Below are positions 13,108 to 43,863 of a stretch of 64,000 bases of DNA, one piece after another. This stretch comes from Desulfosporosinus acidiphilus SJ4 (lineage in GTDB: Bacteria; Bacillota; Desulfitobacteriia; Desulfitobacteriales; Desulfitobacteriaceae): positions 4,063,977 through 4,127,976 of the forward strand of contig NC_018068.1 in NCBI RefSeq assembly GCF_000255115.2, given 5' to 3'. Position numbers and translations under genes: made by a program. Within the stretch, counting starts at the first letter, position 1. Every line of letters begins with the position of its first letter. The notes below the pieces were generated by a model that did not search any database, was not told the DNA's origin, and saw nothing but the letters and a program-made list of their open reading frames with translations.

Positions 13108-13998
13108 ATGGTGATCTCGCCAGATCTACCAAGCATACCCTTTATCATGAAAAACGGAGTAAAATACTTTGAACTAATCGCCCAACCCGTACAACGGGAG
13201 ATTCTTCCAGGGCTCTACATCAACGCTTGGGGATATAATGGTAGTACTCCTGGACCAACCATCCATGTTCATACAGGAGACTATGTCAATATTCGTGTCT
13301 ACAACAGGCTTCCCGAATCCACTAGCGTGCATTGGCATGGTTTAGATGTTCCAAACGTCATGGATGGCGCCCCTGGTATGACAAGTAGCCCTGAGATTGG
13401 ACCCGGAAACTATTTCGATTATCAATTCCAGGTTACTAACCCTCCCGGTACTCACATGTATCACGCTCATATGGATGCGATGCGTCAAGAAATGATGGGT
13501 CTTCAAGGCGGGCTGATTATTTTAGAACCAAACGAACTAGGCAGGATTCATCGTGATTACTTCCTAATGTTTCAAGAGTTCCATGTCGACAAACAGCCCA
13601 TGCGTGGATACACACCCGGCGTCTATGATCTCGATCCCCACAATATGGACTACAATTTTTTCACAATTAATGGGCGATGTTTTCCAAACACCAAGCCACT
13701 AGAAGTCTGTACAGGTGAGAATGTTCGCATTCGTTTGAGTAATGCCATGGAAACCGCCCACCCCATCCATCTCCACGGCCATCAATTCTATGTCACCGCT
13801 TCTGATGGAAACACAATTTCTCCCGGTCAACGACTATTGAAAAACAATATACTAGTCGCTTCAGGGGATACTTGGGATATTGAGTTCTTAGCCAACAACC
13901 CCGGTCAATGGCCTTTACACTGCCACATACCGCACCATATGACCAACAACATGTCCAAATCGGGAGGAGGGATGATGACAACCGTTCTTTATAGGTAA
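13108..13998 (+). CDS. short two-domain-type multicopper oxidase without signal peptide
   Basis: 296 residues with all four copper motifs: HWHG (75-78), HMYHAH (116-121), HPIHLHGH (218-225) and HCHIPHHM (271-278). Cys272 is the type 1 copper cysteine, and the type 2/3 histidines are complete. Such enzymes oxidise Cu(I), Mn(II) or phenols and reduce O2. It is much shorter than the usual three-domain forms (450 or more residues). A stop codon lies three codons upstream, so there is no leader peptide. The RBS (AAGGATGTG) is weak. Whether the lack of a leader is natural or a truncation is open. Decayed relatives lie at 1635 and 15258. Confidence 0.85.
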   Translation: MVISPDLPSIPFIMKNGVKYFELIAQPVQREILPGLYINAWGYNGSTPGPTIHVHTGDYVNIRVYNRLPESTSVHWHGLDVPNVMDGAPGMTSSPEIGPGNYFDYQFQVTNPPGTHMYHAHMDAMRQEMMGLQGGLIILEPNELGRIHRDYFLMFQEFHVDKQPMRGYTPGVYDLDPHNMDYNFFTINGRCFPNTKPLEVCTGENVRIRLSNAMETAHPIHLHGHQFYVTASDGNTISPGQRLLKNNILVASGDTWDIEFLANNPGQWPLHCHIPHHMTNNMSKSGGGMMTTVLYR

Positions 13999-25485: not shown

Positions 25486-28194
25486 ATGATGGCTGAAAAA
25501 GTAAGTCGGGAGGATAAGATCATTAACGTCCAAGGCATGACGTGTGAACACTGCGTCAAGCATGTGACGAAAGCCTTGGAAAAACTCCCGAGTGTCGAAC
25601 GAGTCCAAGTGTCCCTAGAAAATTCCCAAGCCACGTTTAATTATAACCCGTCCCAAGTTACGCTAGCAGATATTCGGGCAGTGATCGAGGACGCGGGATA
25701 TTCTATGGATAATGCGGAAAATGTGCCAGCAAACAAGGATTCAAGCAGTACTGCTCCTGTGGATAAAGAAATTGAAAGTGCTGTAACAACTGTATCTTCT
25801 AAACAACAACAACTGTTTAAGATTTCAGGTATGACGTGTGCTAACTGTGCCTTAACGATCGAAAAGGGACTTAAGAAAATGCCTGGGGTTAAAACAGCAG
25901 CTGTAAACTTTGCCTCAGAAAAACTTTCTATAGATATTGATCCTAGTGTTGTGAAAGAAGAAGAAATCCTCGCCAAAATTAAGGACCTAGGTTACGGTGC
26001 TTCTACTGATGGCAATGAAGGAAAGCAACAGTTTAAAGTCAGCGGTATGACCTGCGCCAACTGTGCCTTAACGATTGAGAAAAAGCTCAAAGGCACACCT
26101 GGTGTACAACATGCAGCGGTGAATTTCGCCACCGAAACGGTCACTGTAGAATTTGACCCTGCAGCAACAAATATGGGCGAAATTTACGATCAAGTCCGCG
26201 ATGCGGGGTATATTCCTTTAGATAATAAGGCAGACAATCAGGAGGATCAGACCGCCATCAAACAACGAAATTGGCTGATTTTTAGTGCGGCGCTTGCTTT
26301 ACCCATCATACCGCTGATGTATCTTCCGATGTCCAAAACGCAAATATATTCCATGCTCATTTTAGCCACAATTGTACAGTTCACTGCAGGTTGGACCTTT
26401 TATCGTGGGGCTTACCACTCCTTGAAAAATCACTCGTCGAACATGGATGTTTTGGTCGCATTGGGGATCACCGCCTCGTATGGTTATAGCCTCATGACAA
26501 CCTTTCCTAACATTTTCTTCACTGGACCTACCTTTTTTGATACATCCGCTTTGCTAATTGTGTTTGTACGATTTGGAAAATATCTTGAAGCGAAGGCGAA
26601 AGGTCGAGCAGGCCAAGTTTTAAAACGCTTACTCGAACTTCAGGCGGATAAGGCGCGTCTACTTATTAATGGCGAAGAAAAGGAAGTTGCTGCCTCGGAT
26701 GTTAAAATCGGCGATATTGTGATCGTAAAGCCCGGTGAAAAGATCCCTGTCGATGGGGATATAATAGAAGGACAAGCCAGTATTGATGAGGCGATGGTGA
26801 CAGGAGAATCCATTCCGATTGATAAAGGCGTGGGCGACCCGGTCATTGGAGCAACCATTAACCGTTCAGGTAGTATCAAAGTGAAAACGTCGAAAACCGG
26901 CAAGGATACAATGTTATCTGGGATCATTAAAATGGTCGAAGACGCTCAAGGAGTTAAACCGCCTATTCAACGACTTGCAGATACGATTTCCAACTATTTT
27001 GTGCCTACGGTCGTTGCGATATCCGTAATTACCTTCTTAATTTGGTATTTTGCTTTGCATAGTACATTTGTCTTCGCCTTTACCGCGGCGATTGCGGTTT
27101 TAGTCATTGCTTGTCCTTGTGCCTTAGGACTCGCAACCCCGACCGCCATTATGGTGGGCAGTGGCGTGGGATTAAATCGCGGGATCTTGTTTAAATCTGC
27201 AGCGGTACTTGAGAGCATTGCGCATCTTCAAGCCATTGGCTTTGATAAAACAGGGACGCTTACCAAAGGCGCACCGGAAGTGACAGATATTATTCCATAT
27301 GCCTCACTAAATCGAAAAGAGGTCTTAACTATTACCGCTGCCGGAGAAAATCCATCGATTCATCCCTTAGCGCAGGCTGTCGTTTCCCAAGCGAAGAAAG
27401 AAAATCTTCAAATTCAAGGGGTCTCAAATTATCGAGAAGAAAGTGGCTATGGTGTTGTTTGTACCTATGAAGGGAAATCGTTACTGATCGGAAATATTAA
27501 ACTGATGCAAAAGTATGACGTGGACGTTCAGGAAACGGAACAAGACTTCCAGAGCCTGGCCGAAGCTGGTAAAACAACGAGCTTTATTGCTTTAGATGGC
27601 CGAGTTATTGGCCTGCTTGCACTGGCTGATGTACTTAAAGAAAGCACAAAAGAAGCGATTGCGCGCCTTCAAAAACTCGGTCTCAAAACTTTCATGATCA
27701 CTGGGGATAATAAAAAAGTTGCCAACGTTGTTGGCCAAGAAGTCGGTATTGACGAAATAATTGCTGAAATCTTACCGCAGGATAAGATCAATATCATTAA
27801 AAAGTATCAAGCTCAAGGGCTTAAGGTCGCTATGGTGGGCGATGGGATTAATGACGCCCCAGCTTTGGCCCAAGCTGATATTGGGATTGCAATAGGTTCA
27901 GGAACGGATGTTGCCAAAGAGACAGGAGACATCGTCCTCGTCCGCAATGATCTCCTAGATGTAGAACGTGCAATACGCTTAGGGCGTAAAACACTAAGGA
28001 AAATCAAACAAAATCTTTTCTGGGCGTTAATTTACAATGCCATTGGGATTCCAATAGCGGCCGGTGCGCTCTACCCATTAACCGGTAAACTTTTACCACC
28101 CGAGTGGGCTGGCTTGGCCATGGCTTTCTCATCAGTATCAGTTGTCACGAGTTCCCTCTTATTAAGAAGCTATGATAGAAAACTGGTGAATTAG
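25486..28194 (+). CDS. copA: CopA-type Cu(I)-exporting P1B-ATPase with three HMA domains
   Basis: 902 residues. Three N-terminal metal-binding domains carry GMTCEHC (Cys20/23), GMTCANC (Cys118/121) and GMTCANC (Cys190/193). The P1B core follows: TGES actuator motif, [12 protein letters not shown] (CPC in the sixth core helix), DKTGTLTKG phosphorylation site, a HP motif (SIHPLAQ) and [18 protein letters not shown] hinge. It pumps Cu(I) out of the cytoplasm with ATP. Three HMA domains exceed the one or two common in Firmicutes. AGGAGGAGGA precedes the ATG. Middle gene of csoR-copA-copZ. Confidence 0.95.
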
Positions 28195-33326: not shown

Positions 33327-35430
33327 TTATTTTCTGTCTGGTTTAATCCTTATTAATCGAATGCCATTTAAGGTCACCAGGATGGACGCTCCCATGTCTG
33401 CCAAAATTGCAAGCCATAGAGTTAACCAACCGGGGAAAACAGCAATGATAGCCACTACTTTTATGAATAGAGCAAATCCAATATTCTGTTTAATTATTTT
33501 TAGAGCAGCTTGACTTAAACTAATGGTAAAAGGCAATTTGGAAAGATCATCTGCCATTAAAGCGATGTCTGCAGTCTCCAATGCAGTATCCGTGCCTGCT
33601 CCTCCCATCGCTACTCCAACAGTGGCGGTAGCTAATGCCGGGGCATCGTTAATACCATCGCCGACCATTGCAACAGTTCCGTATTTATCTAATAGATTTT
33701 GGATGGCACTGACTTTTTCCTGGGGTAACAAGTCTGCCTCAAATTCCTCCACACCCACTTCTTTTGCAATAGCCTGAGCTGTAGCGTTGTTATCTCCCGT
33801 CAACATTACCGGATGTATTCCCATCCGCTTGAGAGAGACTATTGCTGCTTTACTAATGTCACGAACCGTGTCTGCCACTGCAATAATCCCAATGAAACTC
33901 TCTGGGGTACCCATAATCATGGCTGTCTTGCCTTCGCTTTGTAGTCGTTCAACGATGGCTAAAATGGAGTCTATCTTAATTCCTTTTTCCGTGAAAAGCC
34001 GAACATTACCAATATAAACAGTTTTACCTTGACAGATTCCTTGGGCACCACGGCCAGTTATCGTACTAAAGCCTTCAATGGGTTCGGGTACAATCCCCTC
34101 TGATTTTGCCTTGTTCACAATGGCTACAGCTAATGGATGTTCTGAACGAATTTCCAAATTCGCGGCCATTTGAAGGACTTCATCATTAGTATGTTCATTT
34201 ATAGTAATTACGTCTGTTACAGTAGGTTCGCCCATAGTGAGAGTTCCAGTCTTATCAAAGGCAATAGCCTTAAGTGATCCAGCTTGTTCAAGGTAGGTAC
34301 CGCCCTTGATTAGAACACCGTTGCGTGCAGCGTTGCTAATCGCACTAACAATTGCAACGGGTGTCGATACGACAAGCGCACAAGGACAGGAAACCACGAG
34401 CAAGGCAAGGCCACGATAAATCCATGGCTGCCAAGCATAGCCCATTAGTAAAGGAGGGAAAAGGACTATAGCTACCGCTAAAGCTAATACTATCCGGTGT
34501 ATATATGGTAGCAAAGCGCTCAACAAAGGCTTGAGCCGGTGCTCGCTTCGTTTGTGCTTCTTCTACGAGATGAATAATCTTAGCAATTGTCGTATCTTTG
34601 ACGAGTTTGGTAACTCTTATCTCTAACGCACCATGTGTATTTAGAGTTCCGGCAAATACTTCATCTCCAGGCCACTTTTCCACCGAAACAGATTCGCCTG
34701 TAATCGCTGACTGATTGATTGCAGTTTCACCTTTGGCGATAGTCCCATCCATAGGGATTTTTTCTCCGGGCAACACCACAACCACATCATCGACTTGAAT
34801 GTCCTCAACCGGAATTTTGACTTCACCAGTGGCACGGATGACTCTCGCTTCTTTGGGTGCGATGTCCATTAACTCGCGAATCGACCTACGAGCACGATCC
34901 ATCGTCCATGATTCTAATAACTCCGAAACCGCATAGAGTAAAGCGACAACTGCACCTTCCTCCCATTGAGAAATGGCAATAGCTCCAATAATGGCCGCAC
35001 TCATGAGAACGCTCATATTAAAATCAAACTGTTGAAGTGAATAGAATGCTTTTTTGAAATTACCCCAACCGCCAAAAAGCATCGCGATCAGGTAAAGTGG
35101 GATGACTATAGCAAAAGCGGCTCCACTTTTATCCATAATAAACCCAATTGCTAAGAAGGCCGCCGCTACGATTGCACGTATAAACTCCCAATTGACCTTA
35201 GATTTCTTTTGCTCTTGCTGTTCAGTCTCTGAGTAAATAGAGTAATTTTCCTTTTTTCCTTCCAGTCGGATTAACTCTAAGTTTGCCGCGCCATCCACGG
35301 TTAATTTACGGGTAGCAATATTCAACTGAGCCCCGGACACGCCAGGGAGAGCCGCCACATTTTTTTCAAATTTAGCGGCACAGTCCATTCAGGTAATTCC
35401 TTCGACGCGAAAAACGAAAGTGTCAGTCAT
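33327..35430 (-). pseudogene. cadA: CadA/ZntA-type metal P1B-ATPase broken by an in-frame UGA and a frameshift
   Basis: From ATG at 35428-35430 the frame reads MTDTFVFRVEGIT, then TGA, then MDCAAKFEKN. The family motif is G-x-T-C-x-x-C, so the UGA stands at the first metal-binding Cys. The frame then runs through the TGES actuator to FATIYTP. One extra G near 34496-34499 shifts the frame, and IVLALAVAIVLF, SCPCALVVSTP, DKTGTLTMG and [11 protein letters not shown] continue in the next frame to 33327. Without both lesions it would be a Cd/Zn/Pb exporter of about 700 residues. The start overlaps the ArsR-type gene by 8 nt. Confidence 0.8.
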
Positions 35431-40220: not shown

Positions 40221-40335
40221 TTTAGAGGTGTATCACTCATCTTAGCCAAACTTTGTTTACAATTTTTAATGTATCCTCGTATTGGTCACTATACAACTTA
40301 CTTACCTCATGGTATTATTGAAAAAACTAAATAGT

Positions 40336-40506
40336 TTAGAATAAGTGATTCCTTCTTGAGGGAAGGAATTGAAAAGGAAAGTCAGTTGAAAGCTGACACG
40401 GTACCCGCCACTGTAAAAGGGAATCAACTCACACCATGTCACTGGAATTCATCTGGGAAGACGTGAGTTGATGATGATCTTAAGCCAGGAGACCTGCTTA
40501 TTCTAA
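40336..40506 (+). promoter_or_regulatory. cobalamin (B12) riboswitch
   Basis: Hallmarks are visible: ACCCGCCACTGTAA (the GCCACTG core) at about 40403-40416 and the B12 box AAGCCAGGAGACCTGC at 40482-40497. The P1 stem TTAGAATAAG (40336-40345) pairs with CTTATTCTAA (40497-40506). It binds adenosyl- or methylcobalamin and shuts off the genes behind it. A terminator at 40592 is the likely expression platform. Confidence 0.92.
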
Positions 40507-40591
40507 GGTGAAAGCTACCTACGGGAATGTTAGGGGGTGTATACTTGTGTCGATAGGTCAACTCTTGTTGTGTGATACATGTTAAACTTTT

Positions 40592-40685: not shown

Positions 40686-40975
40686 TTGAAAGATATCACT
40701 CAGGCAGAGAAAAGTAGCCCTCAGTGGCTGCGTTATGGTATGGCAGTAACTGGGCTACATCTTTTAGGCCTAACAATGATGTTGCTAAATATATAACAAT
40801 ATCCGCAATTACTGGGATTTGGATTTTTATCGTACACACTGGGCTTACGTCAGCTTTTGATGCAGATCACATTGCAGCTATTGATAACACAGTTCGCAAA
40901 ATGATTCAACATAACCAAGACCCCATGGGAGTTGGTAGGCAAAATTCCGGTTACCGACACCGTACCCGGCTGTAA
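40686..40975 (+). pseudogene. truncated, frameshifted Ni/Co transporter (NiCoT, HoxN type)
   Basis: TTG at 40686 after GGAGGAAG begins KDITQAEKSSPQWLRYG and a first membrane helix, which stops at a TAA near 40795. The next frame continues with ITGIWIFIVHTGLTSAFDAD and HIAAIDNTVRK, the NiCoT signature (usually H-x4-DH-I). It ends at GVGRQNSGYRHRTRL. About two thirds of the usual roughly 330 residues are missing. Cobalt uptake under B12 control is a standard arrangement; here the gene is dead. Confidence 0.8.
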
Positions 40976-41178: not shown

Positions 41179-41475
41179 ATGGATGCCGTCGTTCTAACTC
41201 CTGGCTGACCCCTATGTCATCAATCCGTGGGATTGATCCAGCGTGAATTTGAAGAGATTGGCTTAAGTACGATTAGTATTTCCCTGATGCAAGGGATTAC
41301 GGCAAAAGTATCCCCTCCTCGTACTGTTTATGTTCATTTCCCACTAGGTCGTGTTACTGGTAAGGCGTCCGATGCCGAGACCCAGAACCAAGTATTTAAA
41401 GCTACCCTGAATCCTTTAGTTGATATCCAAAACCCCGGCGAAATTAGGAAACTGCCTTTTACATGGAAAGAGTAG
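41179..41475 (+). CDS. C-terminal part of a GrdB-like selenoprotein with in-frame UGA (Sec-x-x-Cys)
   Basis: From ATG 41179 the frame reads MDAVVLTPG, UGA (41206-41208), PLCHQSVGLIQREFEEIGL and on to 41475 (98 residues with Sec10). It matches the second half of the small glycine/betaine-reductase selenoprotein B-like family, whose redox motif is U/C-P-x-C. An 8-bp hairpin with loop GTG starts 10 nt after the UGA, as expected for a bacterial SECIS. The N-terminal half is missing and no RBS is seen, so it may be a truncated copy. A start at 41227 would lose the redox motif. Confidence 0.6.
41219..41237 (+). promoter_or_regulatory. SECIS-like hairpin behind UGA 41206
   Basis: ATCAATCC / GGATTGAT perfect stem with loop GTG; the loop G is 19 nt after the UGA, within the spacing known for bacterial SECIS elements. 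Confidence 0.6.
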
Positions 41476-41572: not shown

Positions 41573-41974
41573 TCACGATTTTTTATCCCAAGCTTGCATC
41601 CCGCCATCTAAATTTAGAACTTGTTCATACCCCTTCGATTTGAGGAACTGACCAGAGGCGTCCCCCATTGGCCCTGTATGACAGACTAAGATGATCCTTT
41701 TATTTTTATCAAGTTGAGTATATTGCTTCTCAAAATCAGCAAATGGTATCAGAATGGCACCGGGTATGTGTTCATTGTTATATAAAACAGGCTCTCTTAA
41801 ATCAACAATTAACGTATTATTAGCGATTCCATCATTTAATTGTTTTTTTAATTCCGCAACCGAGATGGACTTTACTTGATTACTACTATTATTACTGGTA
41901 TTTTGGTTGGCACACCCTGCTATTATCAGTGATAATAGGCTAATCAATATGACCGAAAAAAATACTTTCTTCAT
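41573..41974 (-). CDS. rhodanese-domain lipoprotein
   Basis: 133 residues: a lipoprotein signal with lipobox IIAGC, an Asn/Ser linker, and a rhodanese domain with VDLREPVLYNNEHIPGAI and active-site Cys in LVCHTGPMGD. Rhodaneses carry persulfide or selenide sulfur on that Cys. It would act outside the membrane. AGGGAG RBS. It follows the MerT-like gene by 57 bp on the same strand, so the two may be one operon with the flavoprotein gene upstream. Confidence 0.87.
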   Translation of the reverse strand: MKKVFFSVILISLLSLIIAGCANQNTSNNSSNQVKSISVAELKKQLNDGIANNTLIVDLREPVLYNNEHIPGAILIPFADFEKQYTQLDKNKRIILVCHTGPMGDASGQFLKSKGYEQVLNLDGGMQAWDKKS

Positions 41975-42031: not shown

Positions 42032-42346
42032 TTATAACAAGCCAAGAGAAAAGAGGGAATACGTGAAACTCGCTAAAGTTAATCCTGTTGCTATCCACAA
42101 TATAATTCTTTGTTTACCATGGACTAAGGATCGCCTTTTCCAGGTAACCCAATGGGCTATTCCTAAAAATATAAAACTTATGCTGATAAACGTCCACTGA
42201 TATCTGGCAAAGAATGATAAGGTTGAAAACATTGAACCGCCCAGACCGAGCGGTATTACTAACGCCGGAAGCGTTCAGGCAAGACATCCAAAAGCGGCGG
42301 AAATCATTGTGAAAATCTGAAGAAATTTTTCTTTCCAATTGGCCAT
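42032..42346 (-). CDS. MerT-like three-helix membrane protein with in-frame UGA (probable selenocysteine)
   Basis: From ATG at 42344-42346 (AAGGAGAG upstream) the frame reads MANWKEKFLQIFTMISAAFG, CLA, UGA (42275-42277, residue 24), TLPALVIPLGLGG and on to TAA at 42032, 104 residues with no other defect. Three membrane helices and the C-x-x-U-x-x-P pattern in helix one resemble MerT-type mercury transporters, where vicinal cysteines in helix one bind the metal. The UGA takes the place of a Cys. A hairpin with loop GGTCT 27 nt after it fits a bacterial SECIS. Standard annotation would miss the first 38 residues. Confidence 0.7.
42236..42254 (-). promoter_or_regulatory. SECIS-like hairpin behind UGA 42275
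   Basis: Minus strand ACCGCTCGGTCTGGGCGGT: 7-bp stem (one T-G pair) with loop GGTCT. The loop begins 27 nt after the UGA. GGUCU is also the apical sequence of the E. coli fdhF SECIS. Confidence 0.6.
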
Positions 42347-42385
42347 TTTTTCTCTCCTTAAACAAGAATTAATAGGGTATAAACA

Positions 42386-43036
42386 TCAACCCACTACTCT
42401 ATTCCTAAGTGTGAAGCCTAATAGTTTGCCTGCCCTATAAGCTTGATCGATTGCGTCCTTTTGTTCATCAAAACGGGGAGGACAATGTTCACTCTTAATC
42501 TCGTCGAGAAATCCGTGGTCCTTAACAACATTACCAACACTACAGTTTTCCCCATACCCACAAGTGTAACACTGGGAATAGCCATGAGCCACAACTGAAC
42601 CAACTATCTCCAGCTTATTTGATTGCATCATCTTAGCAATAAATGTCTGAACGGAATTTCCAGTCTCTCTGCTATATTCCGCGCTCACAACTAGGCCTAA
42701 CTTATCCTTCAAACTAAATACATCTCTGTGCCGGAAACAAAATGTCCTTTCCAGACAGGCGTGGCCAAGGGCATTAATCGTCCCATAATAGTTAGGTGCT
42801 CCAAATACTATTGCCTCAGCTTTGAGCATCTTTTCTCCGATTTCGTTCCAGTCATCCTTAACTTTGCAAAAATTATCAGTTGCACACCTTGTACATCCAA
42901 TACATCCGTTGATTCTTTTACCAGTTAATGAAACATAGTCGTATTCCATCTCACTCGCCAGAAGAACTGCTTTAACTGCTGCACTGGTAATTCCATCTTT
43001 TCTTGCACTGGCACTAATCCCGAGAATCAAAAGCAA
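42386..43036 (-). CDS. NADPH-dependent FMN reductase/iron-sulfur flavoprotein family protein
   Basis: 216 residues with a flavodoxin-like fold: the FMN phosphate loop GISASARKDGITSAA, a CIGCTRCATDNFC cluster motif (C-x2-C-x2-C-x5-C, as in Fe-S flavoproteins), and FGAPNYYGTINAL. A second Cys group (CYTCGYGENC) lies near residue 160. TTG start at 43036, or at 43030 with better RBS spacing. It is the first gene before the MerT-like and rhodanese genes, divergent from a MerR regulator, so a thiol/metal redox role is plausible. Confidence 0.85.
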   Translation of the reverse strand: MLLILGISASARKDGITSAAVKAVLLASEMEYDYVSLTGKRINGCIGCTRCATDNFCKVKDDWNEIGEKMLKAEAIVFGAPNYYGTINALGHACLERTFCFRHRDVFSLKDKLGLVVSAEYSRETGNSVQTFIAKMMQSNKLEIVGSVVAHGYSQCYTCGYGENCSVGNVVKDHGFLDEIKSEHCPPRFDEQKDAIDQAYRAGKLLGFTLRNRVVG

Positions 43037-43389
43037 TCCTTCCTTTCATTTGTAATGAAAGCACAAATTCAACCTTAAGGCAAAAGAACTGTAAATAACA
43101 TTTACACTCACATGTACAAACGTTCTGATTGCACGTTAAATTCATTATATCTTTATCCTTACGTTAACGTCAATATGTACAAAGCCTTTAATATTTCCCA
43201 TTCACTCGTTACTCTAATCAATTCGAGAAGGGTGTGCTATACTAAGCTATATTTTAAAACAAATTCACGGCTAATACGAATGGAAATGATTGGTTCGAGC
43301 CGAGAAAAAGGTACTTATACCAAGTCAATTACCGTTCTTGGAAACCATTAGTTCCATATGCTATACTACATATACCTCTTGGTTACAAT
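43037..43389. other. divergent promoter region between the flavoprotein and MerR genes
   Basis: No gene supported. Contains TACGTTAACGT and AT-rich promoter-like sequence (GTGTGCTATACTAAG at about 43232). It probably holds MerR-controlled promoters for both directions. Confidence 0.4.
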
Positions 43390-43863
43390 ATGATCTCGAA
43401 GAGCAGTATGAATGGAATGATTAACATGAACCAGGAAAAGAAGCATTTATTAAAAATTGGGGAATTGGCAAAAAGAGCCGGGGTAACAGTGCGTACAATT
43501 CGCTATTATGAAGAATTAGGGCTACTATCCCCGACAGAAGTCAGCCCCGGAGGGTTTAGGTTATATACGGAACAAGATCTGAATCGATTCCAGTTCATTC
43601 AACGTTTTAAAGAACTTGGCTTACCTTTGGAAGAAATACAAGTATTAATTGACAATTCTGAACCCGGGGAAAGCAAGATACAAAGAATAAGGGCAAGTTA
43701 TTCTTTGTTGGAAAAACAATTAAAGAAAATTGAAGATAAGATTTCCGAGCTTAAAGTCTCTAAAGCCAGTATTGAGAAAGGCATGGAAGCCTTAAATGTG
43801 TGCAAAGAATGTGCACTGGAGGTATGCCTTCCTGCATGCAGTAACAAAAAGGCTCTATTGTAA
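43390..43863 (+). CDS. MerR-family metal-type transcriptional regulator
   Basis: 157 residues. The N-terminal MerR helix-turn-helix is clear (KIGELAKRAGVTVRTIRYYEELGLLSP, given here as family pattern), followed by a dimerisation coiled coil. The C-terminus VCKECALEVCLPACSNKK resembles the Cys-rich metal site of ZntR/CueR-type sensors. The real start may be the later MNQEKK at 43426. Divergent from the flavoprotein/MerT-like/rhodanese genes, which are its likely targets. Confidence 0.88.
   Translation: MISKSSMNGMINMNQEKKHLLKIGELAKRAGVTVRTIRYYEELGLLSPTEVSPGGFRLYTEQDLNRFQFIQRFKELGLPLEEIQVLIDNSEPGESKIQRIRASYSLLEKQLKKIEDKISELKVSKASIEKGMEALNVCKECALEVCLPACSNKKALL

Follow-up and report, generated by a model that had tools for sequence, protein, structure and literature searches.

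Classical MerT proteins (Tn501/Tn21 type) are small three-helix membrane proteins in which a reactive pair in helix 1 is followed by a proline. The MerT-like family is already recorded as containing selenoproteins (PMC9312934, PMC13188914, PMC2398784), Sec forms of the family are listed in the GOS survey, and NCBI holds a MerT/CopZ selenoprotein model (NF045683). In the relevant passages of PMC9312934 and PMC13188914, a "putative mercuric transport protein" (PF02411, C/SxxU, ABB16073.1) stands among the listed selenoproteins, and the passages searched there make no mention of a rhodanese pairing. TsoB (NF045694), a rhodanese/DsbD fusion-like selenoprotein, likewise couples a rhodanese with a membrane thiol/selenol protein; it is, however, one fused protein with a different membrane fold, whereas the genes of the system described here are separate, and the rhodanese found here matches only the rhodanese part of NF045694 (18 vs 805 bits).

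Here we describe a minus-strand gene of Desulfosporosinus acidiphilus SJ4 that lies in a 64,000-nt stretch of DNA (the whole stretch analyzed, hereafter the window) from a genome of 4.99 Mb in three contigs. Its predicted selenoprotein product belongs to the family already known, and the pairing with a rhodanese is the aspect that merits attention. A search of the open literature, a scope outside which most subscription journals fall, returned no link between MerT and rhodanese, and we did not find an earlier description of the strict division between CxxU and CU/CC genes by rhodanese pairing that is documented below. The features of the locus are:

42032..42346, minus strand: predicted MerT-like selenoprotein ORF, 104 residues with TGA read as Sec, C21-x-x-U24 in helix 1
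42275..42277, minus strand: putative Sec-24 codon UGA, opposite the second Cys of the MerT CC motif in the alignment
42236..42254, minus strand: candidate SECIS hairpin ACCGCUC-GGUCU-GGGCGGU, 7 bp, loop 27 nt after the UGA, -10.2 kcal/mol
42352..42359, minus strand: ribosome-binding site AAGGAGAG, by direct reading
41573..41974, minus strand: exported rhodanese lipoprotein gene, the conserved partner, downstream; lipobox IIAGC, catalytic-loop Cys in VCHTGPMG
42386..43036, minus strand: NADPH-dependent FMN reductase family gene, upstream in the same direction, not kept beside relatives
43144..43173, minus strand: promoter-like TTGACG-18-TATAAT with dyad ACGTTAACGT, 11/12 consensus positions, a consensus match only
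43390..43863, plus strand: MerR-family regulator with Cys-rich C-terminus (CKEC...CLPAC), divergent, candidate regulator

A MerT-like frame interrupted by UGA

The ORF runs from an ATG at 42346-42344 to a stop at 42034-42032 and its sole break in 104 codons is the UGA at codon 24, within the motif G-C-L-A-U-T-L-P (N-terminal translation MANWKEKFLQIFTMISAAFGCLAUTLPALVIPLGLGG...); the Shine-Dalgarno sequence stands 5 nt upstream of the ATG. The plus-strand frame over the same interval is closed and was rejected. Conventional ORF calling begins at 42232, the codon for Met-39, and loses the reactive motif. The initial annotation, which named no strand, had claimed a frame broken once at residue 24, a C-x-x-U-x-x-P motif, a good ribosome-binding site and an automated start that discards the motif, and each of these is borne out on the minus strand.

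The same annotation called the product MerT-like, which holds at the level of the superfamily: all 13 members tested match the Pfam MerT family at some level (PF02411; best E 4.1e-11), as they do several MerT models of NCBIfam. The window protein taken alone falls under the curated cut-offs of PF02411 (18.7 vs 32.9 bits) and NF033560 (44.2 vs 130 bits) and scores 15.8 vs 375 bits with NF045683, a MerT/CopZ fusion-like model whose second domain it lacks. As a PF02411-like protein with a C/SxxU motif, the window protein is nonetheless of the ABB16073.1 type; superfamily and CxxU motif are shared, and the two differ by sequence divergence only. We take ABB16073.1 to be a Carboxydothermus hydrogenoformans protein. 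The Carboxydothermus CxxU protein in our own set (L023), which we tentatively link to ABB16073.1 by genus and motif, shares 33% identity with the window protein, and its gene, too, lies ahead of one for a rhodanese lipoprotein; a near-identical protein (L079) occurs in Carboxydothermus islandicus.

Like classical MerT, the window protein is small and carries a helix-1 pair followed by Pro; three membrane helices are predicted for it. Unlike classical MerT, it has no second Cys pair and no merP/merA context, and the vicinal CC of helix 1 is replaced by C-x-x-U, with U opposite the second Cys. Two motif spacings occur in the family, C-x-x-U (the window type) and C-U, and nearly all members are devoid of any other Cys, so that the second (cytoplasmic-loop) Cys pair of MerT is missing from them. 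In a structure model of moderate confidence (pLDDT 69), helices span residues 4-33, 50-70 and 77-100 alongside a short one, and C21 and U24 fall inside one long helix; a fold search with this model gave no significant match. Positive charges place the N-terminus and the second loop inside, which would set the Cys/Sec pair in an outward-running helix.

Relatives of the C-U type are found in plasmid mer operons. The CU-type Sec MerT of the Alkalihalophilus pseudofirmus plasmid pBpOF4-01 (WP_250634608.1) is 38% identical to the window protein, has its UGA at the aligned column and contains the same kind of SECIS hairpin; it differs in its vicinal Cys-Sec pair, its flanking merR, merF and merA genes and the lack of an adjacent rhodanese. 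A plasmid search with the window protein finds such mer-operon relatives, and one with a single CU-type protein as query gave no matches. RefSeq-derived plasmid records annotate UGA-containing CU-type MerT genes in operons with merR and merF, and merA is also present where the stretch read extended far enough. Three plasmid MerT genes with an in-frame UGA and a SECIS-like hairpin, from Alkalihalophilus (L105, 3010-3312), Enterococcus faecalis ATCC 29212 (L106, 2495-2794) and Cytobacillus (L107, 310-609), adjoin merR and merF, and in the first two merA as well. Enterococcus faecalis is not known to produce selenocysteine, and the plasmid MerT protein may therefore be truncated there.

Conservation, hairpin and decoding machinery

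Homologues were sought in two sets of genomes (150 and 398) from the same phylum as the window. Single-TGA matches were found in the window's genome, one further genome of the genus and some 25 others; about 30 homologues of the phylum each contain exactly one in-frame UGA, in the same column. A wider search for relatives added no further loci, every Sec-type homologue having one TGA in that column, and degenerate-peptide scans of named genomes gave a match only in C. islandicus. Only two of the genomes searched within the genus carry the MerT-like gene, which is therefore dispensable. In the alignment the UGA column holds Sec or Cys; Trp, Arg or a gap, any of which the initial annotation would have counted against a selenoprotein, was never seen. 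Cys forms are few: the main set contains L027, L061 and L062, and L111 was added later. The last of these, a MerT-like gene with the motif HICCWGP (G285:C49:35095-35364), shares its genome with the CxxU Sec genes L046 and L108, so that Sec and Cys paralogues coexist there.

Compared with the nearest relative, at 75% identity, the part before the UGA has a Ka/Ks of 0.11 and the part after it 0.18, whereas the two alternative frames give 1.7 and 2.3. The low values on both sides argue for one protein under selection across the UGA, and the possibility of a pseudogene was rejected on Ka/Ks and conservation.

The hairpin described in the initial annotation, with its 7-bp stem and GGUCU loop 27 nt past the UGA, is present and satisfies the published bacterial SECIS model (PMC13188914). 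On its own it is a weak signal (z -1.4) because the loop also codes for a conserved L-G-L motif; we rejected it as proof by itself and relied on synonymous sites, three of the seven hairpin pairs linking third codon position to third codon position. Standard pairing at the doubly synonymous pair beside the loop is seen in 24 of 28 homologues, as against an expectation of 11.5, and at pair 24-36 it is seen in 18, as against 12.6, cells changed on both sides number 24 vs 10.4 in shuffles, with 0 of 500 shuffles as high, and the full model is satisfied by 21 of 29 Sec homologues, 0 of 3 Cys homologues and 16% of synonymous recodings (binomial 4e-11 for the Sec homologues against the recodings), all figures that overstate independence, the sequences being related. 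Sliding the hairpin register removes most of the covariation signal; the remaining 8 of 29 Sec homologues do not fit the strict model. A pattern scanner described the hairpin as terminator-like, a reading set aside since it lies inside the ORF and is conserved as a SECIS.

The genes selA and selB and a tRNA-Sec with a UCA anticodon, whose absence would have weighed against decoding, are present in the window's genome, which also encodes an FdhA with an in-frame TGA. Across the phylum, selA occurs in 256 of 396 genomes, as against all 25 genomes with the TGA-type gene (chance 1e-5 if genomes were independent), and the Cys-type genome G440 is absent among the listed selA carriers. Matches to tRNA-Sec exceed the family cut-off in 30 of 30 genomes checked; this model also catches other tRNAs, for which reason selA was preferred as the marker of the machinery.

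The intact frame across a conserved UGA, Ka/Ks, SECIS covariation and the selA/selB/tRNA-Sec set together support the initial reading, and on this sequence evidence the gene is very nearly certain to encode a selenoprotein of MerT-like type. SelB would bind the hairpin downstream of UGA-24, and Sec-tRNA(UCA) would decode that codon; the product would be a membrane protein of 104 residues, probably with three helices, the first of which contains the Cys-x-x-Sec pair. That the UGA is a real stop, in a decaying gene or one from which only the 3' part from 42232 is made, is scarcely credible: automated ORF finding does yield a short ORF and two neighbouring opposite-strand genes are fragments, but purifying selection acts before and after the UGA, the same UGA recurs in about 30 relatives, the SECIS is conserved and the Sec machinery is intact.

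Rhodanese genes beside the CxxU branch

A rhodanese gene starts 14-63 nt past the end of the MerT-like match in all 14 CxxU genes and in none of the 18 CU/CC genes, one of which (L035) had just 581 nt of downstream sequence. Four loci fetched later agree (three CxxU genes, each with a rhodanese, and one CC gene without), although, as products of the same earlier search, they do not amount to a fully blind test. Pooled, a rhodanese follows 17 of 17 CxxU genes, from nine GTDB families, and 0 of 19 CU/CC genes. These rhodaneses have an N-terminal signal and a catalytic-loop Cys and nearly all have a lipobox, in place of which that of L110 has a plain membrane anchor; the loop of the window rhodanese reads CHTGPMG, as against the usual C-x-x-G-x-R. 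Both motif types occur together in some genomes (G084, G130 and G159), where each type has its own partner. When mapped on the tree, the CxxU label requires 3 changes vs 10.8 in shuffles; the CxxU type is clustered, and a single origin is not established. A genuine MerT-like selenoprotein and its operon pairing with an exported rhodanese, taken jointly, are highly probable from the comparisons above.

Neighbourhood and candidate roles

The gene order in the window is FMN reductase, MerT-like gene and rhodanese, with the MerR-family regulator divergent and the promoter-like site with its dyad between that regulator and the operon. Elsewhere, the rhodanese is not the only neighbour of CxxU genes: thioredoxin reductase, CcmH-like proteins, prolipoprotein transferase (Lgt) and two-component systems also occur beside them, and two loci combine a CsoR-family repressor and a CopA-type ATPase; because these neighbours vary, they indicate no single substrate. 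Among the CU-type genes examined, ArsR or MerR regulators and CopZ-like proteins are frequent neighbours.

The window from about 6000 to 49000 is a metal-resistance island with a multicopper oxidase, CopA-like and further P-type ATPases (identified by eye), Nramp and FTR1 permeases. Two of its genes, both named by eye, bear on the discussion of copper:

25486-28194: CopA-like ATPase
13108-13998: multicopper-oxidase-like gene

Three further observations concern this region. Two overlapping minus-strand ORFs in different frames (33327-35388) jointly resemble one heavy-metal P-type ATPase, possibly through a frameshift. A second ORF with an in-frame UGA (41179-41475, plus strand; MDAVVLTPGUPLCHQSVG...), some 560 nt away from where the MerT-like ORF ends, aligns with the D-proline reductase selenoprotein PrdB over residues 140-235 out of 238 (E 8e-18). 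Its UGA occupies 41206-41208 and a SECIS-like hairpin lies at 41219-41237; the ORF looks like the remnant of a selenoprotein gene, since the N-terminal half is missing. A cobalamin riboswitch (40326-40515, plus strand; Rfam, 117.5 bits) lies ahead of an ORF (40724-40975, plus strand) that holds only the beginning of an apparently truncated NicO-type nickel/cobalt transporter gene.

Transport of Hg or Cu, suggested in the initial annotation, is only a possible function: the second MerT Cys pair is absent, no merA, merP or merF adjoins the gene, and the gene that constantly accompanies it encodes an exported rhodanese. We hypothesize instead that the helix-1 Cys/Sec pair would serve as a thiol/selenol exchange site working with the surface rhodanese, and that under soft-metal or thiol stress it would take or pass sulfane sulfur, electrons or a soft metal (Cu(I), Hg(II)) across or at the membrane. 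The rhodanese pairing argues for a surface thiol/sulfur role and the metal-resistance island of the window argues for a soft metal; copper, Hg and surface thiol/sulfur roles are compatible and not mutually exclusive. Tentatively, and with a confidence that stops somewhat short of probable, we regard the CxxU protein as a thiol/selenol (sulfane-sulfur or soft-metal) partner of the surface rhodanese and not as a classical Hg(II) importer.

A role in membrane Cu(I) handling, in which CxxU would bind Cu(I) beside CopA-type export while the rhodanese protects or repairs surface thiols, would accord with the two genes listed above and with the CsoR/CopA rows, found at two independent CxxU loci, but most other CxxU loci adjoin thioredoxin reductase, CcmH or two-component genes and have no copper genes, and we consider this role unlikely. 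Slightly less likely still is a Sec-containing classical MerT that uses the helix-1 Cys/Sec pair to bring in Hg(II), or some other thiophilic cation, for cytoplasmic detoxification, the rhodanese being incidental. The match of all tested members to the MerT superfamily, the close CU-type Sec relatives in true plasmid merR-merF-merT-merA operons, and the divergent MerR-family regulator and metal-resistance island around the window gene speak for such an importer; yet nearly all members are without the cytoplasmic Cys pair, the whole genome has no MerA above the cut-off, the regulator scores 79, well under the Hg-MerR cut-off of 150.85, and it is the rhodanese, not mer genes, that CxxU genes retain.

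Returning to the thiol/selenol partnership, a further proposal, possible but doubtful, is that the CxxU branch is misnamed and that with the rhodanese it would form a two-gene membrane system moving sulfane sulfur or reducing equivalents between surface and cytoplasm via an intramembrane Cys/Sec pair. If true, such transfer would be a use of selenocysteine of which we found no description. More broadly, several independent tests confirm the predicted selenoprotein, which ordinary ORF calling would start at Met-39 without its reactive motif, and the "putative mercuric transport" selenoproteins split by spacing into CU forms, several of them in metal-resistance operons, and rhodanese-paired CxxU forms. 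In this way an old annotation may yield a hypothesis about two genes that can be put to the test in genera amenable to culture, Carboxydothermus among them.
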